From NCBI GenBank assembly GCA_010015805.1, contig ML978136.1, positions 655,082-719,081 on the forward strand: a stretch of DNA of 64,000 nucleotides, in the 5' to 3' direction. Source of the stretch: Rhizodiscina lignyota. Lineage: Eukaryota; Ascomycota; Dothideomycetes; Aulographales; Rhizodiscinaceae. Made by a program: the position numbers and the translations under genes. The notes below the pieces were generated by a model. That model was not told where the DNA came from and ran no database searches. It saw only the letters and a program-made list of their open reading frames with translations. Of this stretch, positions 6,341 through 26,336 are shown one piece after another (the first letter of the stretch is position 1; the number at the start of each line of letters is the position of its first letter).

Positions 6341-6923
6341 TCAAATACTGTCGTCGGCGGGGGTCACCTCCTTCGACTCCTCCTTGACGTCCTCCTCGAC
6401 CTCTTCCTTCTTGAGCTTGGAGACCTTGCGCTTCTTGGATGGGGTCTCCTGTTCCACTTCACCATTCTCGGGGCTCTCGTCGTCATCGATATCCTCGGCC
6501 TTGACCTTCTTGGCCCTGCCGCGCTTGGGTGTGGTCTTGCCGCCCGGAGAGCTGGTGACAGAACCAGCTGCAGCCTTGTTGGTCATAGAGGCGGGGTCGA
6601 TGCCATGAGCCTTAAGCAGACGAGAATAGCGCTTGTTCCTGTGCCACGGTCGTGTTAGCCTTTTGATGTTTCAAGCGAATGAAATGAAATGAGTAGACAC
6701 TTACGCAGCTCCCTTGGATGGCGAGCCATCGTTGCCGTTGATGGCGCACTCCTCAGCGACTGCGAGCCAATCGATCTGTTTCTGGGGTTAATAGATCGAG
6801 AAGAGCATGGGATGAGTTTGGCTGTTGACTGACGTTGCCGTTGTTGGCGTGCTTCATGCAAGCGATCAAGAGCTTCACATTCTCAGTCGCCTTGTCAGGG
6901 ACAGCAGCCTTGGTGTCAGCCAT
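6341..6923 (-). CDS. Small Myb/SANT-like nuclear protein, cluster member A
   Basis: Three exons on the minus strand (6923-6834, 6775-6705, 6638-6341; introns 58 and 66 nt) give 152 residues. Residues 10-75 fit a three-helix Myb/SANT-like fold: helix 1 NVKLLIACMKHA, a linker into IDWLAVAEEC for helix 2, and a basic recognition-like helix NKRYSRLLKAHG. An intron falls between helices 1 and 2 and another at the start of helix 3. The tail is basic then acidic (KRGRAKK, PSKKRKVSK, then Glu/Asp-rich), with a nuclear localisation signal of KKRK type, a VKEE site and a short AT-hook-like KRGR. Probable role: a nuclear DNA-binding or chromatin-associated protein; the target is unknown. It is the first of three minus-strand paralogues. 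Confidence 0.8.
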
Positions 6924-7055
6924 CTTGAATGGCGTTTAGTATGAGTCGTAGAAGTTGTGATGTTTGATGTGAGGTGTCGGAGCGAAGTGGTGTCCGAGCA
7001 AAAGTTGGGAGTCCGGAGATGTTGAAGGAAAGGAGTTGGAAGGAGAAGAGAGACA

Positions 7056-7062
7056 ATTTATA
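7056..7062 (-). promoter_or_regulatory. TATA-like box of Myb-like gene A
   Basis: TATAAAT on the minus strand lies about 133 nt upstream of the start codon at 6923. Position and strand fit a core promoter. Confidence 0.4.
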
Positions 7063-7554
7063 TTCCAAGACCGCAGCGCTTGTCGCAAGACAAGAAAGTT
7101 TATTTCACGGGAAAGCTTATTCTGGTAAGTGGACACGGTTGTTGAGGTAGCAACTGTGTTAGTCTACTTTGTCATACGCAAGTGGCTGAGTTAACACGAT
7201 TAGAGGAGACACATGTACAGTCACTGCAAGCTCACGAGGACACATACGGGCACATGGCAACGCAGTAAAGCATTGAATTCATCACTTGCTGAATTTTGAG
7301 GACGAAATCGGTTCAATCTGTAGTTGACTGGAGAATGGACATCTCAGTTGATTCCAGTCAATTCCTCCCGCTTCGCCATTTCGCTCGCCCGCAACCCGTC
7401 AATTCATTTGAGAAGAGAGAAATCAAAAACCAGAGGAATCAGAGCACTTGAAACTCCTTTTGCTCCGTCCGCCATACCCTCTGGTCTCCAAATCCCAAAG
7501 ACCATTCAAGTTGCCATTGCTGCCAGAATCAGTGCTTCATTTTCCATCATGAGA

Positions 7555-7987
7555 TCAGAAGTCGAAGTCATCGTCCGTGTCAATGTTCTCTATCATTTCA
7601 ACCTTCACCTTGTCCTCCTTCTCAGTCTCTGACGTAGTTGGCGTGACTGGCGCAGCTCGTTTCGGGGCCTTGGCCTTGCGCGGAGTTGCCTTTTTCACCT
7701 TTGACGGGCTCTTCTTGTCGATGCCTCCAGATGGCGCCTTCGTGTTGCTGCTTGAGGAATCAGAAGAGAGATCGATGGTCTTCTTCTTTGCGCAACGGAG
7801 ACGCTCCTTGACTGACTGGACAGACTTGGACTTCACGTGCTTGGCAACGGCTTCGAAGTCCACCTAGGCTATTCAGCAAGATGTAAAGGAAAGCGTGAAT
7901 GAGACTCACATCTGCAGTCTTTGCATGATAGTATGCTGCGGCCAAGATGATCGTTTCGGCTGCGGAAAAGCCTGGCAGTGTGCTCAT
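7555..7987 (-). CDS. Small Myb/SANT-like nuclear protein, cluster member B
   Basis: Two exons (7987-7910, 7863-7555; intron 46 nt, phase 0) give 128 residues. The N-terminal domain spans residues 5-53: helix 1 AAETIILAAAYYHAK, then VDFEAVAKHVK and VQSVKERLRCAKKK. The intron sits directly before VDF, the same structural point as in members A and C. The tail is Ser/Asp-rich (DLSSDSSSS), then Lys/Pro/Ala-rich like a chromatin protein (SKVKKATPRKAKAPKRA), and ends in acidic DTDDDFDF with a VKVE motif just before. No other domain is visible. I infer a nuclear protein of the same family. An aromatic residue replaces the usual Trp of helix 2 (VDF for VDW). Confidence 0.75.
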
Positions 7988-8481
7988 GTTGAGTTGATTG
8001 AGAGTGGGCTTTCAATTGAGCGGACTGTCAGCTATTGCATTTGTAGAGTATGAGATGAAAGAATTTACCCTTTGAATCGAATTGAAATCGAGTATGCAAT
8101 TGGAGTTTTGTGGAATGAGTTGGTTGTGATTTTGTCGAGAGGTGAAGCTACGTGAGACTTAAGAACGGCTGGGAACAGGCTTGGAGTAACCAGATATTTC
8201 TCAGGCCTGAAAAGAGGCCCGTGCGCTAGGCAGACATAGTAACTCTCTTAAAGTAGCGGTCAGTCTCGCTTAGTGATGCTCGTTGTTGTGCTTTTACAGA
8301 GCGCAGTAAATGAATCGTGAGGTGATGTATCATTTTCAGGGAAGTATCTACACATCACATCTTGAGCCCTCTGCACGGCACCCCGCAGGATCAATAAAAA
8401 GGCAAAATGTCTCCGAACGCCATGTCTGCTCTAAATGCTCCAATATGCGCCAGCCATCTTTCCGTCTGTCTCAAACGGAGG
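7988..8481. other. Intergenic between Myb-like genes B and C
   Basis: Upstream region of gene B and 3' flank of gene C. It is AT-richer than the genes, with no recognisable element. Confidence 0.35.
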
Positions 8482-9133
8482 TCACAATGTTGTCAGTGGC
8501 TCATCTTCTTGAGTCAGGTCCACGATCTTCTCCCGCCTCCACCCCTGAAGTTGATAGGGCAACGCTTCTTCTTGATCCTGCAGCTTCACTTTCACATCCG
8601 CTATCACCTTCGCCTTCATTCCTAGTGGCTCGACCTTGATAGTGTCGAACAGCTCTCGCTCCTGTTTCAGATCGACTGTCTTCTCCTCAAACTTGATCCC
8701 CGCATTTGCTGCCTGGTCCAGGATATTCTCCTCAAGCCTCTCACGCTTCAGCGGCGATTCGTTCATGAACTCCTCATCGTCATCATCGATGCATTTCTTT
8801 TGCTGCGATAGCTTGAAGGCAGCCGCCTTCGTCACCATTCCTTTCATCCCTTCTCCCTTCTTCCCCTCCTTCCCCAGTGGCGTCTTCTCCCCATTCTTCC
8901 GCTTGCGCTTCTTCACGTCACCTGGCTCTCTTCCAGCCTTGAATCGGTGCCATCTCATGCGCGCCGCATGAGCGTTGCTGATCCCATGCTCGCTCGCAAT
9001 GCGCTCCCAGTTGACCTAGCTCTCGTCAGTCCTTGCTCGTGGAAAGGGGGCACTCCTGAAACATTACATTTCTAACTTCAAGTTGCGTGAGGATAGAGTA
9101 AAGGAAATCGCACATCTCCTTGTCGGAGATCAT
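8482..9133 (-). CDS. Small Myb/SANT-like nuclear protein, cluster member C
   Basis: Two exons (9133-9068, 9015-8482; intron 52 nt, phase 0) give 199 residues. The domain occupies residues 3-52: helix 1 KEMCDFLYSILTQLEVRN, then VNWERIASEHGI, then AHAARMRWHRFKAG. The intron again precedes the VNW segment. The tail has a strong basic block (VKKRKRKNGEKTP), an acidic patch (DDDDEEF) and repeated psi-K-x-E sites (IKFE, IKVE). It ends in TQEDEPLTTL. Longer-tailed than A and B. I infer nuclear location and DNA or chromatin binding from domain shape and charge. No enzymatic motif is seen. Confidence 0.75.
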
Positions 9134-9850
9134 GGCTGTGACTGTGGTACTGATGTGGAACTGCGTCTGGTGCGGAAGACATAGATGGTTGGGAAACGCA
9201 ATACATGGATTATATGACTGAGCAATAGCTGATACAAACGACGAGACAACTGCTGTAATTATTTGAGGCCATCGCAAATAATTGTTCGTAAAGTAATCAG
9301 CCGCAGAAACTGAAAGAGTGAACGCGAAAGGCAAATGTGTGGTGATTTGCGCTGGCTTTGCCCGCACGGGCAGCAGCAGCAGCAGGGCGTTCAGAACACC
9401 GATCGTCCAAACCGCCGTAAGGCTCCGTAAGGGCTTGTACACGCACATCCGGCGATAACAGCGTTTATCCAAGAGATGGCGGGATTTCTACCAATGCCAT
9501 CGTAGCACAAAAAAAAGAGGTGGCTGGGAACAGTCAATCGAGCAAGGGTAGCCTGCATTAGCCCCACGCAGTATGGTCGTGATCCTCAGTGTCTTGTGCT
9601 TGGCTCCGTGGAGGCGAGTTAACACCTCACATTTCTCAGAAAAGCCACGGGGAGCAAGGTAGGAAGTAACTACAGTATATTTAAGCGAGTACTTTTCTCT
9701 TCCCCACTTCTCCAAACCTCTTCTTGAAACTTTGCTCGAGTACTTCAACTCCCTCACTTCGACCTCTCCACAATCACTCAAGCATCTACCCGCATCACTT
9801 GACGCACACCTTGTTCAACTGATTAACACTCGAGCACCAACGTAGCAATC
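9134..9850. promoter_or_regulatory. Shared divergent promoter region of Myb-like genes C and D
   Basis: This 717-bp gap separates the three minus-strand paralogues from the three plus-strand ones, so C and D fire outward from it. On the D side a TATA-like stretch (TATATTTAA, near 9677) lies about 175 nt before the D start, followed by a pyrimidine-rich leader (9690-9800). No repeat unit was recognised. Confidence 0.4.
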
Positions 9851-10363
9851 ATGCCGAAGGGTCAGCCTGTTTCCGGCAAGACCAATGCCTGGAACGATAC
9901 CACGGAGAAGCGCCTGCTTCTCCTCATGATCGCAGGCACCTCTCACGCCAGCAAAAACTGGGACGAGGTTGCAGCTCAGATGGGCCCGAGCTACTCTGTC
10001 AGCGCCTGCAGGTAAGTTTCGTATCACTCCAATTTCGCGGAAGAAGGCTCACGGCGGCACAGACAGAAGTTCGCGAAACTCAAAGCCGCCATTGAGAAGG
10101 AGACTGGCGAGACTATCAGCAGTGGCAGCCCCAACAAGCGTGCAGCGCCTGCAGTGAAGACGCCGAATGGTACTCCGAAGAAGCGCGGCCGCAAGAGGAA
10201 GGAGTCTTCTGATGAAGACGATTCCGAGGACGAGATCGAGCCTGAGACGCCACCCAAGAAGATGAAGAAGGAGGGCAGTGCCGCAAACAGAATCATCAAG
10301 GAAGAAGACGAAGAGGTGCAGGACCTCGACGACGAAGAGTACGATAATCTCCTCGACTTGTAG
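9851..10363 (+). CDS. Small Myb/SANT-like nuclear protein, cluster member D
   Basis: Two exons (9851-10011, 10063-10363; intron 51 nt) give 153 residues. The domain spans residues 12-66: WNDTTEKRLLLLMIAGTSHAS (helix 1), NWDEVAAQMG (helix 2) and VSACRQKFAKLKAAIEK (helix 3). The regular Trp/hydrophobic spacing is Myb-like. Here the intron splits helix 3, close to the second intron of member A, while the intron between helices 1 and 2 is absent. The tail contains an AT-hook-like PKKRGRKRK, acidic Ser/Asp runs (CK2-like SDEDDSEDE), KKMKKE and an IKEE motif. I infer a nuclear DNA-binding protein. It has the best match to the Myb pattern of all members. Confidence 0.82.
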
Positions 10364-11211
10364 CAACGTTGCTGACCAGTTACAGGTTCTACACTCTTCC
10401 TTAAGCGAGTGATTGTGAGTGGCCGCGAGAAAGCCTTTCTCCTGGCCTTGATTGTGATTGCGCATGGCGAGGCAATCGTTGGCGTTCCTGGACAGTCCAA
10501 AATGGCATGATGGAGATTTCGGTTCTCTTCCAATTGGTTTCTGACGTTGCTGGGACGGGAGTTTCGATGGTAGAGCGGTCCGCTGCATCCATGCCACAAT
10601 TCCACACTGCAACGTGATTTTGTACAGTAGCTTACGATCGGTTACAAAAATGAGGCGACGACATCAGAGAAAAATGAGAGCACTTCCAGAAATCTGTGAA
10701 TGGCCGGATGGCGTTGGATTTGTACGGTGGTGCGTGGGGCCATCCCTAGTTTCAGTTCCTGCAGGTGGGACAGGCCTCCCGCACGCCCCGTGCACCCTTG
10801 CCAGCCCCCGCGCAGCCAATCAGCGCGGCTCTCGTAAAGTGCTTGCATACACCGCGACTCTGGACGTGAACTCGATCAACGCCCTGTCATGGCAATCCGC
10901 CCAATCACGTCAGACGCGGTAGCAGAAGCTGGACTGAGATGGGGATTGCCCAGCCTACCGTCGTGAACAGTAATGGAGTGTTGCGTAAGTGACTCACTGT
11001 CGGCCATGCACATATCTCCGTAGTGAGGCCATAGAATTATGTGAACCAGGGTCGTTGAATGCCTGATAAGTACGTCTTTGTTGCGTACCTGTCTGCCTAG
11101 CACTCACTCCATCTTCTTTCCCAGCCTCCCCATTTTTCCAACCAGTCATAAAATCTTACTGGCCAGCAACTTTGTCCGGTCTTCAAGCTTTCCACAAAAA
11201 CTCCAGACAAT
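10364..11211. other. Intergenic between Myb-like genes D and E
   Basis: No gene recognised. Overlapping open frames on both strands are short and lack domain signals. The last 200 bp should contain the promoter and leader of gene E. Confidence 0.35.
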
Positions 11212-11845
11212 ATGACTATCGATTGGAAAACTGCAGAGGCGCTTGAACGATTCTTGGTGAGCTGGTGGATGATCGGTCCCAAAGTTCGTTGCTGTCCCAT
11301 GTGCTACACCCAGAGCACTTGACAAGATGCTGACATTAATGCAGCCGGACCTGAAAAAGCTGGCGGAAGCTTATGGGAACGGCGCAACCTATCATACCAT
11401 GGAAGGTTTTAGTCGCAAAATCAAGGCCAAAGTTGAGGCGCGCAAGAGAGAGATTGAGGAAGCACAATCCAGTGGCGGTCAGGCCAGCCCCGCTCCAGTT
11501 AAGAGGGCCAGGAAGAGCAAGACGACAGACGGTAAGTTCGAATGACCCGCCTCTTATGCAAGAAAGGTTGAGATGTCCGCAGGTGTCGTGTCTGGTCGTG
11601 TGGAGAAGACCAGTCCCAGCAAACGATCGCTTCAGCGGAGCGCGACTTTCGTCAAGACGGAATCGAGCCAGGCTTCAACCAATGGCGCCCTCCAGACACC
11701 TGCGCTGACTCCAGGGAGCACATCCGATGCTCTCGACATATCTTTTACGGATGATATGACCATGAGCTTCGAATTTGATGGCCATAATATGGCGAATCTG
11801 CTTGACGTCGGCCATGCCAACAGCTTCCATACAGAGAGCTTTTAA
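11212..11845 (+). CDS. Small Myb/SANT-like nuclear protein, cluster member E
   Basis: My model has three exons: 11212-11283, 11345-11531 and 11583-11845 (introns 61 and 51 nt), 173 residues. The domain is IDWKTAEALERFLVSWWMIG, then PDLKKLAEAYGNG, then MEGFSRKIKAKVEARK. The first intron separates helix 1 from helix 2 as in A-C. A weaker donor (gtgagc at 11257) would remove nine residues of helix 1, so I prefer gttcgt at 11284. The tail has basic VKRARKSK, a VKTE motif and a Thr/Pro-rich end, with DDMTMSFEFDG resembling the acidic Met/Phe stretches near the C-terminus of member F. The Trp of helix 2 is missing. I infer nuclear location. Confidence 0.7.
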
Positions 11846-12460
11846 GGGCCGAAAAGTTTAGAGATCTGGTAAAGAGTCGATTTAATTCTTCTATGAGACG
11901 GTTAATATACACTCCAGCCTCTGAAGAGTGTATAAACATTTGATGAATGGGGATTGGCCGCGATGACAAACATCGCGGCTGTGTCTAGATGGCGTGCCCT
12001 CTACAAGCAGAGGCATCAGACGACGGGACGATTTCGGTGTCTGGCGGCGTGTCGGCAATCAAGGAGGACTTTTGATGAGTGTATTCTGGGGTCCATAGCG
12101 TCAATGAACAAATGGTACTCTCTTTTCTTCTTTGTAATGATCTGACGGCGCCATGACACTTCCGGGTCGGCGTGGATCAGGGGTTTCAACGAGCTATCTC
12201 GCCCATCTCGTCGATTTCTGGCTTCCATGGGAGCCATCAAGATGGAAACGCCAGCAAAATGTTGAATTGATAGGAATCGTGTTTGTTGCGTGTTGCTCAA
12301 GGTATGACGAATAAATCTTTGAAATGTTTGCCTTAGGTGTCGACGGACTAGCAGTTTTGCCGAGTGCTCGAGGCGGCGGTCGCTCCTGACTCAAAGTGCG
12401 CAAATGCCAGGCGCCACTGGCGCTTGGCGTACCGAGCCTACTTTAACGACATGCCGGTCC
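11846..12460. other. Intergenic 3' of Myb-like gene E
   Basis: No coding or RNA signal recognised. The gene-free stretch continues into the repeat-bearing segment described next. Confidence 0.35.
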
Positions 12461-12465
12461 TTCGA

Positions 12466-12925
12466 CCTTCAATAACATCAGAAGTAATCGAAAATCATTC
12501 AGTATCATAACAAGACCCCCAGTTCATTGTATACAGTGCTCACAATGTCTCTTCAGTGTCCTATGTCGTAATACGTCTTGTTTCTTGTGCCCAGGTGCGG
12601 TCTACGTAAAACACCTCAGTGACCGCACACGCGCCAGCATAAACAATTGAAAATCTTCAATATAATCAGAAGATCATCAATTCGATGTGCAAGGTGCTTA
12701 CAATACCTCTTCAGTGTATTCTTCTCGTAATACAAATAGCGTTCGCGTTGTCATTCACGTCTGCTTGAACCTATTGATCAAAACTATTGAAAATCAATAT
12801 CACCCAGAGTTTCTCTATTTTATGAATAAGAAGCATGCTTACCACATCTCTTTAGTATTTATTCTGTGTCGACATGTGTCGTCTTCGCGCCACGTAGCCA
12901 ACGTAAGCCTATTGATGACCCATGC
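12466..12925. repeat. Three degenerate direct repeats of about 140-160 bp
   Basis: Units begin at about 12487, 12646 and 12786, each with AT(C/T)GAAAATC, followed about 45-65 nt later by a variant of GTGCTTACAATACCTCTTCAG and then CGTAATAC-like words. Spacing is 159 and 140 bp. The copies are strongly diverged, with no long open frame in common. Confidence 0.55.
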
Positions 12926-12961
12926 GTGAGAGTCTCCTGGTCCACCTGTTTCCATTCCGGG

Positions 12962-13125
12962 TACAGAAGGTACCCGTGTCGGGCTGCATGGTGCCAGTGA
13001 AAAGCCACACGCCTTCAACGAAGGTAGTGATTTGGGAAATAATGTCCAAGTCCAAACGTCCTAGACAAGGCAAGTAGCTGGCTTTTCATTAGCAAGCATA
13101 TAACCCGACGCGGGCACCCTCTGTA
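12962..13125. mobile_element. Non-autonomous foldback element (MITE) with TA target duplication
   Basis: Two inverted arms of about 46 bp (12962-13007 and 13079-13125) face each other across a 71-bp centre. Each outer end reads TA-CAG, so the element could be 12964-13123 (160 bp) inside a TA duplication, as for Tc1/mariner/pogo-type transposons. In the first 23 positions of the arms every difference is a transition (A/G or C/T). No transposase is present, so it would depend on an element elsewhere. Confidence 0.6.
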
Positions 13126-14172
13126 TTATGGTCGGCGCCTGTCTATACTAGAACTGCCTCTCTGTATCTGCCACAGGCTTCCGTAAACAGAGGATCACCT
13201 CTCTGCTCTCAGTGTGCGTGCTATGGAACAGATTCATGCGGTGCTGTAATCACTGTTTCCTGGATCTTGACTTTCTATTTCCCTAAAATTATCTGGGGAC
13301 ATGTTTCTCCCTAGAGAGATGGATAGATGTGTACTACTTACGGGCTCTCTAGCTTCAATCAGCGGCTGTACTTGCCTTCACAACCACCCAATCACCCATT
13401 CACCCATTCAGTCGTGTCGATCTCTTCACCAACGGTACCACTAGCCAACGCATCGAGAGTTGAAGCGTGACCTGGGTGCTAAAGACCTAACTCCCTCAAT
13501 AAACCCCTGCAACCTCGATGGTCGTCAATTCATCCAACAAGGGCCCTTCAATCTTAATTGCGGTGGCTGGTTGCCCGGGTTGCAGCGCACAACGCCAAGC
13601 CTAGTCGTTTCAAATAGGTCCCTCCGGATCTCTCCTCTCTTCCCTCCTACACTCTTGTCACCTCTTCTGCAATCTGCGCACAACAGCCAATTCACCGCGC
13701 CGGTTGCAATCACTTGCGTCGTCCTCTACAATCAATCTTCCGATCGATTGACTCTAGCCCCTGGGCTTCACAGTCGCGCACCGTGCTCGCACTGTGCAAG
13801 ATCAGACCACTTCCGAGAACGGCTGAACACTCGTACCTGCCAAGCTTTCAGATCAACCAGATTGCCTTTGCAAGGCACCACATCTGGCGGCGTTTGGCAG
13901 TAGCGAGCGAGTGACCAAGTTGGTGACAGAAACTGAAGTTCGTTGTTGCCTGGTAAGCCTTTTAACATTCATTTCATTCCTAGTGATGAACACCTCATTC
14001 AGTCAACTTCCAATCTCGAGACTTTATTCATCTCTTGGCCTTTTCTATCTGGCTCCTACTGCCGTCAATGGAATCGGATCTTACTGTGATCTAGAAACTC
14101 CCAGCTGTTTACGTTACTTCCAATACCTATCATTCGACATCTACCAAAATAAAATCTCAAGATCTCGACACA
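13126..14172. other. Upstream region of Myb-like gene F
   Basis: Pyrimidine-rich from about 13370 onward, with short CACCCATT repeats near 13390-13410. The open frame at 13460-13903 looks like compositional chance in this CT-rich DNA. The last part probably contains the gene F leader, possibly with a leader intron (gtaagc near 13951 to cctag near 13982). Confidence 0.35.
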
Positions 14173-15758
14173 ATGACCGGGCCCAAAATGAAGTGGACAG
14201 CGGATGCCGATCGCCTGGTAAGTGCAACACCACCTCTCATTGTTTCACAAACATGGCTGACTTTCATCCAGTTGCTCATCAGCATGATCGGTGCTCTCAA
14301 TATTCCCGTTACTGAAAATGCGCAAAAGATTGCCAACTTTTATCGTATGTAATCACATCATAGAAGAACATGTACAGCAGCTCACAATACACAGCGCCGA
14401 ACGATAATGGCGAGAAGCCCACTGCTAAGGCAATCACTGAGCGAGTTTACCGCATCAAGAAGCAGTTTCAGAAGCATGGCACCGCAGAACCCCGTCGTGG
14501 CGCTAGAGCAAACAATACTTACGTCAGAGTCGCTAGTTCCACTGCCACTACTCCGCGCAGGGCGCGTGCTCCCCGCCAGCCCAAGACCCCGAAGACGCCT
14601 CCGTCCAGCAGCAAGAAGCGCAAGGCAGCGGCTGCAGACTCCGATGATGACGACGAGTATGCTCCCAACGCCAAGTCCAAGGGCAAGGGATCCAATCTCT
14701 CCAAGGAAGCGGCTGCTCTTATGAAGGACAACCCTGCGTTCGCATTCTCTGGCCGTGCTTCGACTCCAAGTAAGAAGAGGGCCAAGAAGGAGGTTGACTA
14801 TGCTGAGGACATGAGGAAGGAGAATGAGGACGAGTCCGAGAACTTGTCATCTGATGAGGAGCAGATCCAGGTGGACGAAGGTGTCTATGAGGACGATTTT
14901 GGTGAGGTGATGGAAACAAATACCGTCCAGCCTATCGCCTTTACTCAGGCTTCCGGCACCAACAAGAACAATCACGGAATGCATCCTCCAATGATCAACA
15001 CCCAATTGGCGAACAGCAGCTTCGGTGCTAACTTCGCTGGATCTCACCCTGCCGCCAGCTTCCCGGTGAACCAGAATGGCTTCACGACTCCTGTTTCCAT
15101 GCCTTCCTCTATGGGCGCTCACGACAACTACTATGGCATGCCGCACACGCCGTACATGGGCCATGGCAGCAGCTTCCAGTACAATCCAACCAGCTACAGT
15201 ATGCCCACTACTCCTGCCCACGGCAACATGAACATGTCTTCCTTCATGACTGACAACAGCGGCGATGGCGACTTCTCGCGTGGCAACTTCGATGGCCACA
15301 ACAGTACCACAGCGAGTCCTACAGACTATTCCAATGCTCTCTACGGCTCTCCTGACGATGTCTTCGGCCCTGCTCTCACTCGTCCACGCTTCGGTACTAA
15401 CTTCAGCATGGGCGGTACTCCTTATGACAGCATCTTGAAGACTCCACCTAAGCCGAGTACTGTGCGCAGTAACACTCTCTACCAGGGTGACAGCTATCCC
15501 ATGACGCCGCACGCCAGTCCCTACACGACCTCGTTCGGCACTCAAGGCTCTCAGGAGACTCTCATGTCGTCCCTCAGCCCTGAAGACGACTTCAACATGA
15601 CTTTCTCCACCGACGAGATGGATCTCAAGCGTACTTTCCCCACCAACCAGATGGATGTGCAGTACAACGATTCCCGTGGCCGTCTTGAGTCGCCCTCTCC
15701 TGGCAAGGATATCTTGAATGAGTTCTTGCAAGACCGCAACCATGGTGCCATGCACTAA
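14173..15758 (+). CDS. Long-tailed Myb/SANT-like nuclear protein, cluster member F
   Basis: Three exons (14173-14217, 14272-14344, 14395-15758; introns 54 and 50 nt) give 493 residues. The domain is KMKWTADADRLLLISMIGALN (helix 1), VTENAQKIANFY (helix 2) and TAKAITERVYRIKKQFQKHG (helix 3). The first intron, after ADADRL, is at the same place as in member G (after AEADAK). After the domain come a basic region (PRRARAPRQPKTPK, SSKKRKAA), an acidic segment (EDESENLSSDEEQIQVDEG) and then some 280 residues rich in Asn, Ser, Gly, Met, Pro and Tyr with repeated YGMP/YSMP-like turns. This disordered region looks like a transcription-factor activation or prion-like domain. It is the only member with this extension. 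I infer a DNA-binding regulator. Confidence 0.8.
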
Positions 15759-15908
15759 GCAACTACTCAACTAGCGGATACTCGGCTAGCAATTCTACTG
15801 GCATACTCTCACCGGCATATTCTCACTGGCAACTACTCAACTGGCAACCACTCATCTTACAACCACCCAACTGGCAGCCACTCAACTGGCGACCATTCAA
15901 CTGGCACA
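15759..15908. repeat. 15-bp minisatellite directly after the gene F stop codon
   Basis: About ten units of roughly 15 bp, best copies reading CAACYACTCAACTGG, run from the stop codon onward. Units vary from 12 to 15 bp, the later ones being most regular. They would lie in the 3' UTR of gene F. Confidence 0.6.
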
Positions 15909-16773
15909 CTCGAGCTTCTTCAACAATGCTCACTTTCACGAAAGATTCCGTGGACTGCCCACAGAAACTTACACTCCAGCGATGCGACATCCCCGCCTTT
16001 CTTCTTTCAAATCATACGACGACCACGGGCACCTTCTTGTGCAACTATACGTGGGCTCGACTGTCCTGACAAGGCCGTTACAGCGCTTTCTTCAGGCGTC
16101 GATTGCTCTGTCCATAATCACTCGCTCCACTGACATATTAGGGCGTCCGTGATTTGGTCCTCTTCTGGTCAAACCGCGCTCTGTCCCTGATGGCGTATAA
16201 AGGGCTTGGGACACCGACACTCATTCACGGCTTTCCATTTCTTCTTTTCGTTTCCTATTTTCCGGGCGGCTGTCTCAAAACTCTTCTGTTCTCCGAATGG
16301 CGGACTGCGACGAAGATCATTCTGGGCGGCTGTCTCATCACGGTCTGGGTTCTCATGGACATGCTCTGGCGATGTTGCCAAGTATTCAACCCCTCTCGGG
16401 CTGGGCGTTTCGAGGCGGACTTTCAAAACTTTCGGGGCTTGGAAGGATTGTCAAGGGCGGTCTTCTCAGATGGGTACGGAAAAGGCATATCGGGAGCGGT
16501 AAAAGGTTTTCATAAAAAGGTTTCGTAACGGGAAAAAGCGAGGCGTTTCAATGGCATGTGGGATGTACAATAGGACCATTGAATCAACAAAAATCCTCCA
16601 CCAAATATCTTCGAATGGACTTCGTGCGTGAACGTGAGACATGATGATTGTTCTATTGCGCTTGAGTTTACATGTAGGCTGCAACACCAGCGCTTCCCAG
16701 ACATAAGCGCCATGCCCATCAGGATATCTTCCAAGAACCAAACGCCTCCAATGCAAGTATGATGACTGTCCTA
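15909..16773. other. Intergenic between gene F and Derlin, with short duplications
   Basis: Two copies of GGGCGGCTGTCTCA occur about 60 bp apart (near 16264 and 16324), within G/C-rich sequence with other partial echoes. No convincing gene is seen; overlapping frames on both strands look accidental. Confidence 0.35.
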
Positions 16774-17685
16774 CTACATGTGCTGAACTTCCACCGGCTG
16801 TGCGGGCGCTCCAGCATCTGCATTCGCGTTGTCTCCCGCGACAGCTTCGACTGGTACATGTGTGACCTGTGGTCTGCGCTCGAAGAGCCATAACCACCAG
16901 CCGGGAGGATCAAGAGGCCGGTGGTTATTGTAGAGGGAAGGGTAGACGTCGTTGAAGAAGTACCAGACTGGCGAACCACAATCAGCTTCAAGCAATTGTG
17001 AGTAGATGGGAGTGCGGAAAACATACCATGGCCCACCACCACGCCCGTAATCTCATCCTTCGGCACAGTTCCATGCATCACAAGATGAATAATCATCATA
17101 ACCCACGGCAGATACGGCGCCTTGAACACAAACAAGCCCAAGAAGCTCAGCGTGGTATCCGGGTTCTTCCTGCTCCAGATGTACACGAGCGTGCTGGACA
17201 GCGTCTGGCTGAGGAAGGCGATGGAGAAGAGCGGGGCGATGCACAGGATGGACACGCTGATGAAGAGCAGCATCCACGAGAAGCGGGCGGGTGAACGGCC
17301 GGACGACTCCTCGAGCAGGCGCGCGTAGCGCTGCATGAAGTAGACGTGGAAGAGGAGGTCGAGATTAAATGAGCCGAAGTAGCAGAAGGTGGTGAAGAGG
17401 CGCCAGAACTGTGAGAGAGCTTGTTAGTGCCTGCAGTTTGTTGTTTCCCCCTTCTGGAAGATGGAAAAACTGGAGAGGCATGCATACCTGCTTCTTGTGG
17501 AAGACCGCGCGATAGCTGTAGAAGAGCTGGAAGGGTGAGAGGATCTTCGAGTGGACAAGCAAGCTGATAGCGAGCGTTGCTGCTGTCCAGTACCGCGTAC
17601 ATGGCGGCGTCTCCATTATCCATTGCTCGAGCTGGTGCATGATATCACCATCGCCGCCGCCAGGGCCGCCGAGCATGGCTGCCAT
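16774..17685 (-). CDS. DER1: Derlin (Der1-like ER quality-control membrane protein)
   Basis: Three exons on minus (17685-17488, 17408-17027, 16967-16774; introns 79 and 59 nt) give 257 residues. Derlins are rhomboid pseudoproteases of the ER membrane that help move misfolded proteins to the cytosol for degradation. The family pattern is clear: N-terminal PPCTRYWTAATLAISLLVH (first helix), FQLFYSYRAVFHKKQFWRLFTTFCYFG carrying the Trp-Arg signature, LDLLFHVYFMQRYARLLEE, several further hydrophobic helices, and HVWYFFNDVYP before a polar cytosolic tail. Length is normal. The start was placed at the ATG that gives the usual short N-terminus. The CENP-A gene is divergent from it across about 580 bp. 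Confidence 0.9.
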
Positions 17686-18268
17686 ATTGTATCTTACTGA
17701 TTGCAGATTGAGGAGGGAGTGTCGATGCTGGAAGGAAGGTGACAATGGTGTAAGAAGCTGCTTCTAGCCTACAGTTATATGAATGTCATAAGGCTTGTTC
17801 AGTCATCATTCCGCGTGCTGAACAAAGCCACGGAAAAGGCCAGAGTTGCTTGATGAAGCTCGTGTGTCGTGCTTGACGTAGGGTCCCGCCTGCCGAAGAT
17901 GTTCCGGCGGACATTAGCGCAGGATATGGCGCACGGTGCACCGCTCCTGCCGCTGCTCGCGTGTAAACAATGTCCACCATTCCTTCCCTGGCGCCGCTGT
18001 CTCCTTCGTGATTCTTAAAGTTCTGCGCGTCCAAAACCCTCTCCCGGAATCACTCGAAAGCAGTGCGATTTACTTGCATCCAGCCTCGGCTTCCATTGGC
18101 TCTGGATCTTCTGGGATTGCGCACCTCAATACGCGTCTAATCATCCGCTGTCGAAGCATCGCGTCCATACATACTCGCTCAGCTTGATACACGCTTTTCA
18201 CCACAACAAAGCGCAATCTGGAAGCAATTGACCGCCTTTGAACCTTATCGCATTCATCCACTATCGTC
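17686..18268. promoter_or_regulatory. Divergent intergenic region of Derlin and CENP-A
   Basis: 583 bp between two outward-facing conserved genes, so it must contain both promoters. I recognise no specific binding site. Confidence 0.35.
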
Positions 18269-18836
18269 ATGGCTCCCAAACAGCGTCACACTGGCAGTAA
18301 GAAACCTCGCGCAGGCCCATCATCTGGAGGCGCATCGGCAAGACGAGTCGGCGGCAAGACAGCAGGCAAGACATCTAGAAAGACATTTCCTACTACGCCG
18401 ACGCGAGGGCGAAACAGCAATGTCTACCCCGGCGATCCAGTACCGCGAGGCCAGCGCACTCCAGGCAAACGACGATACAAACCCGGCACGCAGGCGTTGC
18501 GTGAGATCCGAAAGTATCAGCGCAGCACGGATCTGCTGCTGTTGAAGCTGCCGTTCGCGCGACTTGTATGTATCCTCTCCCCAATCAGTCGCAACACAAT
18601 CATTTTGATACATCACTTAGGTCAGAGAAGTAGCCATGAACATGGTCCCAACGGGTGAGATGCTGCGCTGGCAATCGCAGGCCATCCAAGCGCTACAAGA
18701 AGCGGCTGAAGCGTTCCTCGTGCATCTCTTCGAAGACACGAATCTCTGCGCCATCCACGCCAAGCGCGTTACCATCATGCAGAAGGACATTCAACTGGCG
18801 CGGCGCATCCGCGGCGCTTGGGGAGGATTGGGTTGA
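18269..18836 (+). CDS. CSE4: Centromeric histone H3 variant (CENP-A)
   Basis: Two exons (18269-18565, 18621-18836; intron 55 nt, phase 0) give 170 residues. CENP-A replaces histone H3 in centromeric nucleosomes and marks the site of kinetochore assembly. Residues 1-75 are a basic tail unlike canonical H3 (start [15 protein letters not shown]). The histone fold follows: [54 protein letters not shown] and [20 protein letters not shown]. Diagnostic features against H3 are the longer, different loop 1 with [23 protein letters not shown] in place of CEAYLVGLFED, and the RGAWGGLG end. The intron before VREV divides the histone fold. The model is complete. Confidence 0.95.
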
Positions 18837-19394
18837 TCTTGTTGTAGATGGGCGTTTGCTGTATTGTTAACAATGCATGATGCCGTCTCATCGCAAGGCG
18901 TTGGTGGGCTTCACGGGTCAAGCATTGTTCTGCATTGGGTGGCATTTTTTATTAGAAGGACGGAATTCGGTGAATACACCTTTCAGGCCAGTTCGGCTTG
19001 CTGTCGTGATAGTAAGAATAAGATGATAACTCTGACGGACAAGTCGAATGATGAGTGAGAATCTGAAGCGACGTTGGTCAGCTCTGCGACTAAGAGCTCC
19101 GCAAAATCGCTCGCGACTCTGCATTCGGCATTATGACTGCCTTGTCACATGGAAAGAACCAAGTACGGAGTAGTTCAGACACAATCCTCATGAAGAAGAT
19201 TAAAGAGTCGTTTAGAATCATGGCGAATGGTATTAATATCGAGGTTGGGTATCCCATAAGTCATTCTGATACTCCAAACATGCATCGATCAACAGTCCCC
19301 ACAGTCCCCTGCAGTCCAATCATTTCACATCGCCATCGTCACTTCGTACACTATCCTTCAAACTGCTGGACGCCATTCCATTCGTTATTTCTCC
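18837..19394. other. Intergenic between CENP-A and the histidine phosphatase
   Basis: Tail-to-tail gap between convergent genes. No repeat or gene recognised. Confidence 0.35.
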
Positions 19395-20914
19395 TTATGC
19401 CTTCACAGCTGCGCCAGTGCCAGCTCCATTCGGCACACCCGCACCCGCAAGCCTGCTCTTGCTAACCAGCCTGAGTCCACCGAGCAGCAGAATCAACGCT
19501 TCCACTCCCAGGATCACACCCAGCGTGACCATCGCGCCAATGACGCCGCCGACCGCAGTCGAGATGTGGCTTCCACCACCACTGCTGCTGCTGCCGCTAT
19601 CGCTGCTGGACGAGCCCGACGACGGCGCAAACGCAGCGCACGTACCGGTGAAGTTGCCGCACTTGGTGCACCACTCCTGCGTCGTGGTGACGGAAATGCC
19701 GCTCATGTTGCTCACAAAGTCGGGCCAGCTGACCGTCTCGCTCTTCTGGCCGAATAGTGGGAAGGCCGTGGGCTCGGTCTTGTTGTCGCTCGTGCCATTG
19801 TGGTACAGGAAGCGCACGTTGATCTGATCTTGGCTCGGCGCACCCTTGCTCACGTCCGCAGTCGTGACGAGCTCGAACACCATGCTGCTGGCGTAGTCGG
19901 GCACGCCGAAGAAGTTGGGGGATGCTTCAGTGAGGTTCGCGAGCCCGAAGAAGCTGAAGAAGGTGCCGTACGCGCCGAATTGGATGCCCAGCTTGTTGTT
20001 GTGCTTGGCGAAGGAGGTGATGCTGCTGTTGAGGTAGTCGAGGATCTCGCCAGCAAGCTGCATGCCTGCGATGGCACGCATGTCATCCGATGCATTGTAG
20101 GCGAGGCCGTACTCGTGTGAGTCAGCGAGGGTTCGTAGTTGGAAGAGGGTTGGAGTGTCGAGGAGATTGGAGGAGTTGATGGTGCGGTTATGGATTTCGG
20201 CAACGTTGATCAGGTCGAAGACTGACGGCGGAGTTAGTACTCGCAGGTTGAATTGGTATCATGAGATGACATACTGGTATAAGCATTCTTGAAGCTGGTT
20301 TGAGCAGCACTGAATGAGCCATTGACCACTGGATCAAGCCTGTCGTAAAAGCTCTGTGTAGATTTCAACAGGCTCTGGTACTGCGCAGAGTTGAAGTAGT
20401 TGTTGCTGCTCGTCTCCGCATTCGCGCAGCTCGAAGCATCCTGCAACCAGCCATTGTCCTCGCTTCCAGCGCCGCCATTGCTCACGATATTAATTGGAAT
20501 GATCTGGAATCCGCCCAATGGGGGCTCTACGCTGGTGCCGTTCCTCAGCGTCTGGGAGGCTGCGTTTCCGGCTGCTGGGTAGAGACCCTGCACAAAGCCT
20601 GCCGCGCTGCTCTGGAGGACATTGTCGACCGGCGCGGTGACTGCGAGTTGCGCAAGACGAACGACGTCTGTGTTCAGACCCGAGATCGGGTTCGTAGCAT
20701 CAGACGCGACATAGCGGCTGCGATAGTATTGCCCACGTTCGTACACCTCGCGGTAGCCAAGGTCGGTCAGATTGGCGGGAGGAGTGGCTTTAGCTGTGCG
20801 GTCGCCGTGACGATGGAAGATGTATACACCCAGTACCGTTTCTGATGACTGGGCGACGGTCGTGAGAGGCAGGGCGAGAAGGCTGGAGAGAAAAGCGGCG
20901 CTCTTGAAGCCCAT
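19395..20914 (-). CDS. Membrane-anchored histidine acid phosphatase family protein
   Basis: Two exons (20914-20275, 20221-19395; intron 53 nt) give 488 residues. Residues 1-22 are a signal peptide. The phosphohistidine motif is FHRHGDR with RHG at 35-37. A second conserved region, FAKHNNKLGIQFGAYGTF, occupies the place where classical members have a His-Asp pair, here His-Asn. A Ser/Gly-rich linker (SSSSDSGSSSSGGG) leads to a transmembrane helix (GGVIGAMVTLGVILGVEALI) and a short basic tail, so the enzyme domain should face outside or the vacuole lumen. Potential N-glycosylation sites are frequent. The family removes phosphate from monoesters or phytate. The missing acid makes activity uncertain. 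Confidence 0.8.
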
Positions 20915-22190
20915 GATGCCGATTAGACAATACTCAGACAAAATACAATTGTGATGGCTCAATTGCTCCAGAAACAATTGAGGTGCGCGTCTGAAGATGA
21001 AAGAGAGCAGTCACACTTATCTCCAGCACACTACTCCGCGGGGATGCAGGCCTTTTGTTCGGCGACCTTGAGAGCTTCTTACTCGTACGAGTGGGGTTCG
21101 CGCAGCGGGGCGCCTCTCCTCGCTCTAGCTTATCAACAACAGCGCCTTAGACGGGCAGGTCGGCGCGCTACTGCACGCTGTGGAAGCATTCCTCAGGGCC
21201 AGTCCCATGTGGTTGGAGGCGACATGCACTGGTCATCGCTATGCTCGCTTGGGCAGGAGAACGGGCGGTGCGGTTTGGCGGCCATCGTCAGATCTTGGTG
21301 CGGCATCGGAAGAGCCATCCTCATACGGAATGTGAACCAGCCAATGCGGAGGTGTCCGCCGGCGAGAACTGCTGATCGCGAAAGTGACAAAATGTTTTAC
21401 TTGAGACCTGCCCAGAGCGGCTCTAGATGATCTAATCTTGCACTGGGACAAGTGAGAGTGTCGCTGAAAATTTGACAACTATTTGATAGGACTAGTGAGG
21501 TTTTACGGCAAGCAGACTTACCCCAAGCAAAAGCAACGAGAGTGGAATGCTATCTAGAATGTAATTGGTGGCGGCGGATGAAACGATCGGGATCTACGAA
21601 AGCGCAACTCAGGACGATGAAATAGTTGAGCGCCACTCCATACGCCGCAACGTTTCAAGACAAGCATAGCTTGGTCTCGTGCAGGAATTGCGAGATCTCT
21701 AGAAGCTTGACACCGTTTGCGATTTGATGCCTGTGCAAGGCTTTAACAGCTATTCTTGGTATTGGCGACATCTTGAAGAAGTTGCGGTGCAATCTTTCAT
21801 CGTACTCGATTCGCTTCTGGTTTTCGTTAGTATTCACTTATTTGAAAGATAGAGTTGTAATTACGAGGCCTTCGGTCGAAGCAGCTGAAGCATTCCATGA
21901 AAAGTCATCAAGTGTTCATTGATCGTGAAAGCCGGCTATCTCCCTGTCATACTAAGCAACGTCGTGTGAGCGCATGACGCAGAGCTTGGTAAAAGCTAAC
22001 CGACAACATAAAAGAAAACCCTGTCCTCAGTGTGTGAAGTGGCCCTCAAAGGAAAGCCGTGAGAGATCCCATCGCCAATAACACGCCAGTGCAGCGCCGA
22101 GCATTTCCAAGCAGACCCTGATGTTCCTCAAGCATTTGACGCCATAACCACCCCAGAGTATGACATCCTTGAGAGCACGCCGATGCTTGT
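20915..22190. other. Intergenic upstream of the phosphatase
   Basis: 1.3 kb between the start of the minus-strand phosphatase gene and the 3' end of Myb-like gene G. A 60-codon minus-strand frame at 21655-21837 has reasonable composition but no domain. Nothing else is recognisable. Confidence 0.3.
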
Positions 22191-22837
22191 TCAGCAAACG
22201 CTCTCACCCATCTCGGAGAAGATTTGGTTTTGAGCCTCGACATTGCTGTCCTCACGCTTAACCCTTTTAACATCTCCCTCCTCGGCGTCGTGGAATTCGT
22301 CCTCCTCACTGCCATCATCCTCGACATCCTCCTCATCAGTAATGTCGCTCTCAGCGTAGCTGCGCTTCGTTCCGCGGCGGAGACTGGAGCGATCGATGGA
22401 AGGAGATGAGTCCACATTGCTAGCAGGGAGATCATCATAGTCGTCTTCGGTCACATCCTCGACGTCAACGAATCCCTCCTCCTTCTTCACCTTATCAATG
22501 CCGTTGGCCTTGTCGGGGCGCTTGACAGAGCCACCGCTGGCGGCGGGGGCACGACGACGCGGAGTGGCAGGGCTTCCACCATTGGCGCCTTTACCATTGG
22601 CACCTTTAGCACCAGCAGGCCCTTTGATTTTACCAATTCGGTGCATGATGGCTTTGGCAGTGCAGTCCGGGCCCATCTCCCGAGCGAGAGCCTCGTAATC
22701 GATCTTGACATTATGCACCTTTATGAACGCGGCGAAGAGCTGAGCTCTGTTAGCGACTGCATGTTCGATAAGGTTCAACCGCTGTCAAATATTAGTTGCC
22801 TTACCTTCGCATCCGCCTCAGCATCCCACTTGACCAT
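22191..22837 (-). CDS. Small Myb/SANT-like nuclear protein, outlying member G
   Basis: Two exons (22837-22805, 22739-22191; intron 65 nt, phase 0) give 193 residues. The domain is VKWDAEADAKLFAAFIKVHN (helix 1), KIDYEALAREMG (helix 2) and TAKAIMHRIGKIKG (helix 3). The first exon is only 11 codons and splices after AEADAK, the position used by member F. The acceptor chosen (gctcag) is the one that keeps helix 1 continuous. The tail has ATPRRRAP, DKVKKEEG, RRGTKRSY, long acidic runs (DITDEEDVEDDGSEEDE) and VKRVKRED, giving VKKE/VKRE-type motifs. I infer a nuclear DNA-binding protein of the same family, separated from the others by Derlin, CENP-A and the phosphatase. Confidence 0.8.
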
Positions 22838-24578: not shown

Positions 24579-26336
24579 ATGAAGCGCAAAAGAGCTGGCA
24601 ATGATGCTAAAGAAACTCCCACCAAACGCACTCGCGCCGCAGCCGCAGACGACCTTCTTGATGAAGAGCAAGAACAGGATGAAATCGCCATTCAAACCCC
24701 CTCACGACGCAATAGAAGCGCGAAACCACCTACCATTTCCACGCCCACAAAATCCATTTTAAATGGACGCCCTAAAGCTCCAACTTCCACCGCAGCGACA
24801 CCACAATCTAAGCGCAAAGTCCTCTTTGAGACACCCTCGAAGCAACAGGAAGAATTGGAGGATGAGGCTACGCCAACGACCACCCGCAATGCTGACAGGT
24901 CAGCAAGGCGCAAAAGTTCTCGTCGCTTAATTGAGCGAACGCTGGCAGAAGACGGTAGTGAGGATGATGTCTCTGAAGACGACCTCGCGCGTGAGATTCT
25001 CAACGAGGACGACGAAGAGGAAGACGATGAGGAGGAAGAATTGGTGGATGAAGAGACACAGGCAGAGACGGGCACACCTTCAAAACCGCGGCGAGGAAGA
25101 CCAAATGCCCGGAGACGTAAACGATCCCCTACGCCGCCTGAAAATCTCCCTCCACACGAGCAGTATTTCTGGCACAACAAGCCGGGCGGGACAAAGACAT
25201 CAGACAACAAGTTACCTTCAGATGCGTTGCTGAATCACGATGAATACTTCCAGCGGATGCTGGGTTACGTAGAACCACATCAAAAAGAGCTGGACCATCT
25301 TCTTTCCCTCCATGCCCGCTCATACGAACAGTGGATATTCGAGCTCGAGTGCGACTTTAATATCTGCCTATACGGATACGGCTCAAAGCGCCAGCTTCTG
25401 ACCGACTTTGCTTCTTACGTGCACTCGACGCAAGACGATCCGCCCAAAATCATCATCACGAACGGCTACGCCCCTGGAATCACGATTCGCGACATCCTCA
25501 ATACGATTGCTGGCGTCCTTCTGCCCAAACATCTCCAGCTTCCGACGCAACCACAAGCTCTCCTTGACATCATCCACGAAGCGCTCTCTGCTCCGGTCGC
25601 CCTATCCTCATCCAAGAAACGGGCCCATTCCAACCAAACAGCACGAACCACACGAATCCTTCTCCTCATCAACTCCATCGACTCCTCCTCCCTCCGCCGA
25701 CCCACCGTCCAATCCCTCCTCGCATCTCTCTCATCTCATCCGCAAATCTCCCTCCTCGCGACCGCCGATACGCTCAACTTCCCTCTCCTCTGGGACACAT
25801 CCCTCCGCAGCACTTTCCGCTTTCTCTTCCACGACTGTACGACCTTCGTCCCTTACACCGCCGAGATTGAAGTTGTCGAGTCAGTCAACGAGCTGCTGGG
25901 CAGAAGCAGTCGACGCATCGGCGGCAAGGACGGCGTCGCGTTCGTGCTACGCAGTCTGCCTGCGAATGCGCGAGCGCTGTTCCGCGTGCTGGTTGCAGAG
26001 CAGGTCGCTGCGGCTGCGGAGGGCGATGACTTTGGTGGGGAAGAGGGTCAGGCCGGTGCGGGCGCGGATATGGATGAGGACAGACTGGCACCAAGTTCTT
26101 CGAGAAGGCCTCTCGATGCTGGAGTGGCATCGGAAGGAGTGGAGTATAGGTTGCTGTACCGCAAGGCGCATGAGGAGCTGATATGTACAAACGAAAACGG
26201 TTTCAGAACTCTTCTGAAAGAATTTTTTGACCATCAGATGGTAGAGAGCCGGAGGGATACGCTTGGGAGTGAGAGACTTGTCGTACCATTCCGGAAGGAG
26301 GAATTAGAGGGACTGCTGGAAGAGCTCGTTGATTGA
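24579..26336 (+). CDS. ORC2: Origin recognition complex subunit 2
   Basis: Single exon, 585 residues. ORC2 is part of the six-subunit complex that marks replication origins and loads the MCM helicase. The start is the ATG opening MKRKRAGND, which gives a typical disordered, basic/acidic N-terminus with cyclin-kinase-like sites (KETPTKR, QTPSRR); the upstream in-frame ATG at 24480 would add an atypical hydrophobic leader. From about residue 190 the conserved body begins: LPPHEQYFWHNKPG, then LLSLHARSYEQWIFELECDFNICLYGYGSKRQLLTDFA, the AAA-like core whose degenerate P-loop region is YGYGSKRQ. The C-terminal winged-helix part includes RLLYRKAHEELICTNENGF and FFDHQMV. It is convergent with aminopeptidase P, 160 bp apart. 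Confidence 0.93.
   Translation: MKRKRAGNDAKETPTKRTRAAAADDLLDEEQEQDEIAIQTPSRRNRSAKPPTISTPTKSILNGRPKAPTSTAATPQSKRKVLFETPSKQQEELEDEATPTTTRNADRSARRKSSRRLIERTLAEDGSEDDVSEDDLAREILNEDDEEEDDEEEELVDEETQAETGTPSKPRRGRPNARRRKRSPTPPENLPPHEQYFWHNKPGGTKTSDNKLPSDALLNHDEYFQRMLGYVEPHQKELDHLLSLHARSYEQWIFELECDFNICLYGYGSKRQLLTDFASYVHSTQDDPPKIIITNGYAPGITIRDILNTIAGVLLPKHLQLPTQPQALLDIIHEALSAPVALSSSKKRAHSNQTARTTRILLLINSIDSSSLRRPTVQSLLASLSSHPQISLLATADTLNFPLLWDTSLRSTFRFLFHDCTTFVPYTAEIEVVESVNELLGRSSRRIGGKDGVAFVLRSLPANARALFRVLVAEQVAAAAEGDDFGGEEGQAGAGADMDEDRLAPSSSRRPLDAGVASEGVEYRLLYRKAHEELICTNENGFRTLLKEFFDHQMVESRRDTLGSERLVVPFRKEELEGLLEELVD

Follow-up and report, generated by a model that had tools for sequence, protein, structure and literature searches.

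Seven small Myb-like genes near a scaffold end in Rhizodiscina lignyota: an uneven family, probably old in part, with tails rich in SUMO-acceptor motifs

A run of seven small genes, here called A to G, lies in 64,000 nucleotides of DNA (the window) from the ascomycete Rhizodiscina lignyota (Dothideomycetes, Aulographales; NCBI GenBank assembly GCA_010015805.1, contig ML978136.1). The window covers bases 655082-719081 of a scaffold of 719081 bases and so stops, on its right side, where the scaffold does; the assembly as a whole measures 33.4 Mb. An original prediction made from the letters of the DNA described the genes as a tandem family of small Myb/SANT-like nuclear proteins, each with an N-terminal three-helix domain and a charged tail, that had arisen by local expansion and rapid divergence. 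All seven can be modelled from the starts given there, with GT-AG introns of 46-88 bases and with start and stop codons present. A, B, and C run leftward and D, E, and F rightward from a divergent gap at 9133-9851, with G farther to the right. The spliced models are as follows.

Gene A (NA57DRAFT_61210), 6341..6923, minus strand: 152 amino acids, with Myb_DNA-bind_8 at residues 13-66; two introns inside the domain, of which the phase-0 intron at 6776-6833 is held in common with B, C, and E.
Gene B (NA57DRAFT_81006), 7555..7987, minus strand: 128 amino acids, with a weak Myb_DNA-bind_8 match; shared phase-0 intron at 7864-7909.
Gene C (NA57DRAFT_81007), 8482..9133, minus strand: 196 amino acids (199 in the public model), with Myb_DNA-bind_8; shared phase-0 intron at 9016-9067.
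Gene D (NA57DRAFT_81008), 9851..10363, plus strand: 153 amino acids (public 151), with a Myb-like domain; phase-2 intron at 10012-10062.
Gene E (NA57DRAFT_81009), 11212..11845, plus strand: 164 amino acids (173 in the public model); shared phase-0 intron at 11284-11344 in the public model.
Gene F, 14173..15758, plus strand: 493 amino acids, with a G-type domain and a long tail; phase-0 intron at 14218-14271.
Gene G (NA57DRAFT_81014), 22191..22837, minus strand: 193 amino acids from this start (public 237); phase-0 intron at 22740-22804.

Annotated R. lignyota proteins match six of the seven genes (A, B, C, D, E, and G), and the public protein for A is identical to the model. Gene F, at 493 amino acids, lies outside the length limits of the three protein searches, so its failure to be returned is uninformative. 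The public model of C carries three further residues (VRN), that of G an extra upstream exon, and that of D different last residues; for E, nine residues are added ahead of the first intron and bring the domain back to its usual length. Domain comparisons relied on the public models for C and E. The expectation that automatic annotation would list the genes as unrelated hypothetical proteins holds for NCBI, which names them all "hypothetical protein," and for B, E, and G in UniRef ("Uncharacterized"). It fails for A and C, which UniRef labels "Myb-like DNA-binding domain," and for D ("Myb-like domain-containing").

The relationship among the seven is uneven. Against the Pfam profile PF22980 (Myb_DNA-bind_8), which has a curated cut-off of 27 bits, A scores 65.0 and C 46.4 bits (52.6 bits for the public C model). 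D and B fall below the cut-off at 19.5 and 13.5 bits, and E, F, and G give no PF22980 match in the Pfam scan. The family named in the original prediction is the correct one for this core of A and C, and B, D, E, F, and G are filed as relatives rather than members. A second profile was built from 18 domains of other species only, orthologs of A, C, and G included. It gives 62.3 bits for A, 52.4 for G, 51.5 for C, 22.7 for D, 8.7 for B, 6.1 for F, and -1.1 for E, with a negative control at -1.4. Since the profile holds their orthologs, the high scores of A, C, and G mostly restate orthology. Once the G-type sequences are removed, the scores fall to 6.7 bits for G, 12.2 for D, and -0.5 for F, so that by this test the link of G to the A/C type is weak.

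Profile-profile comparison of the seven genes together with four control segments links A with C (96%), F with G (95%), and D with G (69%), followed by A-G, A-B, A-D, and C-D at 34-37%, against 3.0% for the best pair involving any control; C-G reaches 5.5%. No such link is obtained for E, whose best value is 2.2%. Pairwise identity over the domain is 10-32%, as low as had been foreseen. A, C, D, and G are relatives of one another, with homologous domains; B and F are very probably relatives of these four, and E probably is too, judged by its gene structure, there being no sequence link. The G-type domain (W-x-x-x-A-D-A-K-L-F ... M-G-x-D-C) is present in three other fungal genera, Venturia, Exophiala, and Aspergillus (proteins P0004, P0005, P0009, and P0029), yet P0029, P0004, and P0005 give no Myb match in the Pfam scan, and P0009 has no precomputed domain there.

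Intron positions offer a line of family evidence independent of the profile comparison. A, B, C, and E each carry a phase-0 intron after the same column (27) of the domain alignment, as does L002, a further locus elsewhere in the genome that is described below. The alignment of E is weak, which makes its column the least certain. F and G have a common second site, phase 0 after column 12. The phase-2 intron of D lies one codon off the second intron site of A, and the second intron of F (phase 1, column 39) has no counterpart. Shared intron sites tie together members that sequence comparison alone would miss. They also bear on the idea that the grouping is partly due to chance, with a real core (A, C, and perhaps D and G) that happens to have unrelated neighbours (E, possibly B and F) whose likeness to the core would reflect how common small helical N-termini with charged tails are. 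Such an origin would account for the missing sequence link of E and for the low outside-profile scores of B and F. It sits poorly with introns that agree in column and phase across A, B, C, and E and again between F and G, and with profile comparison values of 95% for F-G and 37% for A-B against at most 3.0% for control pairs, and is considered unlikely. As a separate observation, one gene model of Didymella pomorum (P0006, SLS61_004442) contains two tandem Myb-like domains, the second with an insert that coincides with the shared intron site or lies only a few residues from it; it is possibly a fused or mispredicted pair of neighbouring genes.

Structure predictions cover A and E. The model of A has helices at residues 11-24, 33-39, and 51-64 with a block-mean predicted local distance difference test score (pLDDT) of 87-97, and its best structural matches include Cdc5 and further Myb/SANT domains, on a par with some bacterial DNA-binding folds. 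A is confidently predicted to adopt a Myb-like three-helix fold. For E, an alignment of three rows yields helices at 5-21, 27-35, and 43-66, at a block-mean pLDDT of 55-68 in the first 80 residues; Foldseek matched no chain with this low-confidence model, a result that does not exclude the fold. Neither of two profiles found a sequence match to a solved chain at an E-value of at most 1. The aromatic residue (W/F/Y) said to open helix 2 in every member is found in five of the seven (A, B, C, D, and G) and is absent from E and F.

In all seven proteins the stretch corresponding to the third helix is basic, with a charge of +3 to +6, and the remainder of the domain is neutral or acidic. DNA-binding Myb repeats have a basic third helix, and on this ground the proteins are taken to be small DNA- or nucleosome-binding factors. 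The domains might instead be SANT-type modules that bind histone tails or partner proteins rather than DNA, with the tails serving as SUMO-dependent scaffolds. Histone-binding SANT domains are usually acidic at the third helix, in contrast to the basic stretch in each of the seven, and this alternative is regarded as rather doubtful, though somewhat less so than a chance grouping.

The tails supply the most useful new fact, an excess of SUMO-acceptor motifs. Each of the seven carries one or more basic clusters ([KR][KR]x[KR]), in agreement with the charged tails first described. In the predicted model of A the tail is of low confidence and has no helices after residue 72, and the tail of E is likewise of low confidence. 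The SUMO-acceptor consensus (psi-K-x-E) consists of a hydrophobic residue, lysine, any residue, and glutamate. Written as [VILMF]KxE, it occurs 14 times in seven of eight Rhizodiscina tails, where 2.3 are expected. Thirteen of these sites fall in six of the seven cluster genes, at one to four per tail, and the tail of F has none. In related tails from elsewhere, 55 sites are found in 19 of 21 tails against 4.0 expected; this set comprises the returned proteins with a markable domain end, with R. lignyota proteins, P0010, P0012, and P0030 excluded. None of 5000 shuffles reached the motif count of either set, and the reversed motif, at one occurrence in the Rhizodiscina tails and two in the outside tails, is not enriched.

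The hydrophobic residue and the glutamate of the motif are moreover coupled, with an odds ratio of 13 (p 2e-6) in Rhizodiscina, where the tails are very divergent and are treated as nearly independent, and of 22 (p 1e-23) in the outside set, which includes close relatives, making its p-value too optimistic. Among 57 background open frames of the same scaffold there is no motif excess (15 against 16 reversed), though some of these frames may not be genes and the matched low-complexity part is small (9 blocks). At least two acidic residues occur within the next six positions at 10 of 14 Rhizodiscina sites and 35 of 55 outside sites, counts taken without a control. A SUMO-interaction motif is seen only in C (IVDLTQE); the pattern is rough and uncontrolled, so no claim is made from it.

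The evolutionary part of the original prediction has to be reversed. The best domain identities of A are 57% with Purpureocillium and 53% with Usnea, those of C are 59% with Aspergillus saccharolyticus and 54% with Phyllosticta, and those of G are 64% with Venturia and 57% with Exophiala. The relative of C in Phyllosticta capitalensis is HDK77DRAFT_490875, and that of G in Venturia inaequalis is EG328_011494. Purpureocillium, Aspergillus saccharolyticus, Venturia, and Exophiala span Sordariomycetes, Eurotiomycetes, and Dothideomycetes. Each of A, C, and G has relatives beyond its own class of Pezizomycotina whose similarity is about double that of any of its cluster neighbours. Since the three are closer to proteins of other classes than to one another, the duplications that gave rise to them appear older than those classes, and by sequence comparison A, C, and G look like old paralogs. 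A FastTree tree places C and G with outside proteins (support 0.75 each for the closest pair) and A beside outside A-type proteins, with modest support from a domain of only 50 residues.

For the other genes the age of the duplications is undecided. No relative above 32% identity in a named species was found for B, D, E, or F among the proteins returned and compared. The nearest protein to B in the tree is a metagenome protein, P0026, at about 21% identity. E has relatives in metagenome contigs at 57% and 42% over the aligned stretches, and a third (P0012) spans its C-terminal part. Apart from R. lignyota, the protein matches carry one locus tag per named species. An origin of all seven from a single gene within the Rhizodiscina lineage, by recent tandem expansion and rapid divergence, would fit their physical clustering, their shared intron sites, and the shortage of named relatives of B, D, E, and F. 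It conflicts with identities of 53-64% between A, C, or G and other fungi (57-64% for the best of each) against 10-32% among the seven, and with the relatives of E in metagenome contigs. A recent local expansion is not supported for A, C, and G, which resemble proteins of other species more than they do the rest of the seven, and as an account of all seven it is very improbable. Overall, the original prediction is partly confirmed: its observation was real, if uneven.

A genome-wide, exon-by-exon search with PF22980 gave eight matches at an E-value of at most 10: three from A and C, one at L002, and four that were not counted. The same loose threshold also gave matches in two of 14 control genomes. 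Two loci stand out beyond the cluster.

L002, 1501-1590 (G000:C2:3068990-3069079), minus strand: a clear further Myb_DNA-bind_8-like gene, sharing the intron site of A, B, C, and E.
L003, 1501-1593 (G000:C3:300389-300481), minus strand: a Myb-type repeat in an open frame of 93 amino acids, with a PF22980 score of 21.7 bits (E-value 0.005).

When the L002 protein was used as a query, no R. lignyota protein was returned for it, and the gene may be unannotated or differently modelled. L003, though under the cut-off, is possibly a further relative as judged by eye. Also by eye, L007 was dismissed as lying within a zinc-finger reading frame, and L004 and L008 as chance-like matches.

A and C, two of the three clear genome-wide PF22980 loci, lie within 2.2 kb of each other. 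A manual estimate (three pairs, 4.4 kb of 33.4 Mb) puts the chance of such proximity at about 1 in 2500, or about 1 in 1300 with L003 counted as a fourth locus. An intron-aware profile scan covering the window, the 200 kb to its left, and L002 gave 56 bits for G, 53 for C, 41 for A, 24 for D, and 28 for L002. F (11.3 bits) and B (10.7 bits) scored low, and E was not listed. No credible member appeared in the 200 kb to the left, where the best score was 13.3 bits against 11.5 for a reversed-sequence control. That candidate does not resemble the domain, and another at 12.7 bits overlaps a gene on the other strand recognised by eye as HSP60. Since B, E, and F lie near or below the noise of the scan, members like them elsewhere would be missed. 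Introns cut the domain, which makes genome searches with single proteins insensitive: the A-type query gave no match, A itself included, and G-type, D, and E queries each returned only the gene in question. The F query returned F with three matches at E-values of 0.29-3.5, and the B query returned B with one at 5.75.

The most widely shared promoter words of 7, 8, 9, and 10 bases were equalled by 39, 22, 4, and 11 of 300 random draws, respectively. One word, GGCTGGGAA, has three copies in the window, at 8167 (upstream of B), 9522 (between C and D), and 11118 (upstream of E). All three copies are upstream of cluster genes, and the 200 kb to the left holds one copy. It is a possible shared control element, treated as a lead only because one site is counted for two of the four genes.

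Other genes lie within and beside the cluster. G is 6.4 kb past F, and between them are a Der1-like gene, a histone gene, and a histidine phosphatase gene. The histone gene (exon 1 at 18269-18658, plus strand; Pfam Histone 41.5 bits) has a different N-terminal tail and is, by our own reading of its sequence, a CENP-A-like candidate. The gene for origin recognition complex subunit 2 (ORC2; 24582-26336, plus strand; Pfam 284.7 bits) adjoins the cluster. In a bolder proposal, the genes would form an ancient linked set, predating the split of the Pezizomycotina classes, of SUMO-controlled Myb-like chromatin proteins that are jointly assembled on DNA by SUMO on their tails, and the proximity of the candidate CENP-A gene and of ORC2 might point to a common function in specialised chromatin; this is distinctly improbable.

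The account we favour, held at a little better than even confidence, is that the clustered genes encode an old set of small nuclear, DNA-binding, SUMO-switched proteins belonging to the Myb_DNA-bind_8 family of Pezizomycotina and its relatives. The N-terminal three-helix Myb-like domain would hold DNA or nucleosomal DNA through its basic third helix. The disordered tail, with its basic patches and its SUMO-acceptor motifs often followed by acidic residues, would carry SUMO, through which partners in chromatin are recruited or released. Attachment of SUMO to transcription regulators often has a repressive effect, and each protein would act as a small SUMO-switched regulator, probably a repressive one. 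The motif excess across the family offers a first concrete, testable function for Myb_DNA-bind_8 and suggests that filamentous fungi contain many small SUMO-regulated DNA-binding proteins; the cluster may point to a group of SUMO-controlled chromatin proteins that has gone unstudied. A literature search by the family name and accession of PF22980 found no paper, which is not proof of absence in print, R. lignyota itself is mentioned in four papers, and the available portions of papers on SUMO or expansion with Myb or fungi contain nothing on the Myb_DNA-bind_8 family.

Among known systems, SUMO substrates with psi-K-x-E sites resemble the cluster in that the motif is strongly over-represented in the tails. 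They differ in that the cluster is known here from sequence motifs, no report of its SUMO modification having turned up in the literature search. Cdc5, a spliceosome component, is long and has several Myb repeats, whereas the cluster proteins are 128-237 amino acids long (493 for F) with one recognised domain each. The closest comparison is with PF22980 itself, whose short Pfam description makes no mention of tails with SUMO motifs. B and D stay below its cut-off, E, F, and G do not match it, and the G type lacks a Myb match in Pfam. A and C, by contrast, are members by score and resemble the family in size and arrangement; helix 2 opens with [ILV][DN][WFY] in A, B, and C, and the third-helix stretch is basic.

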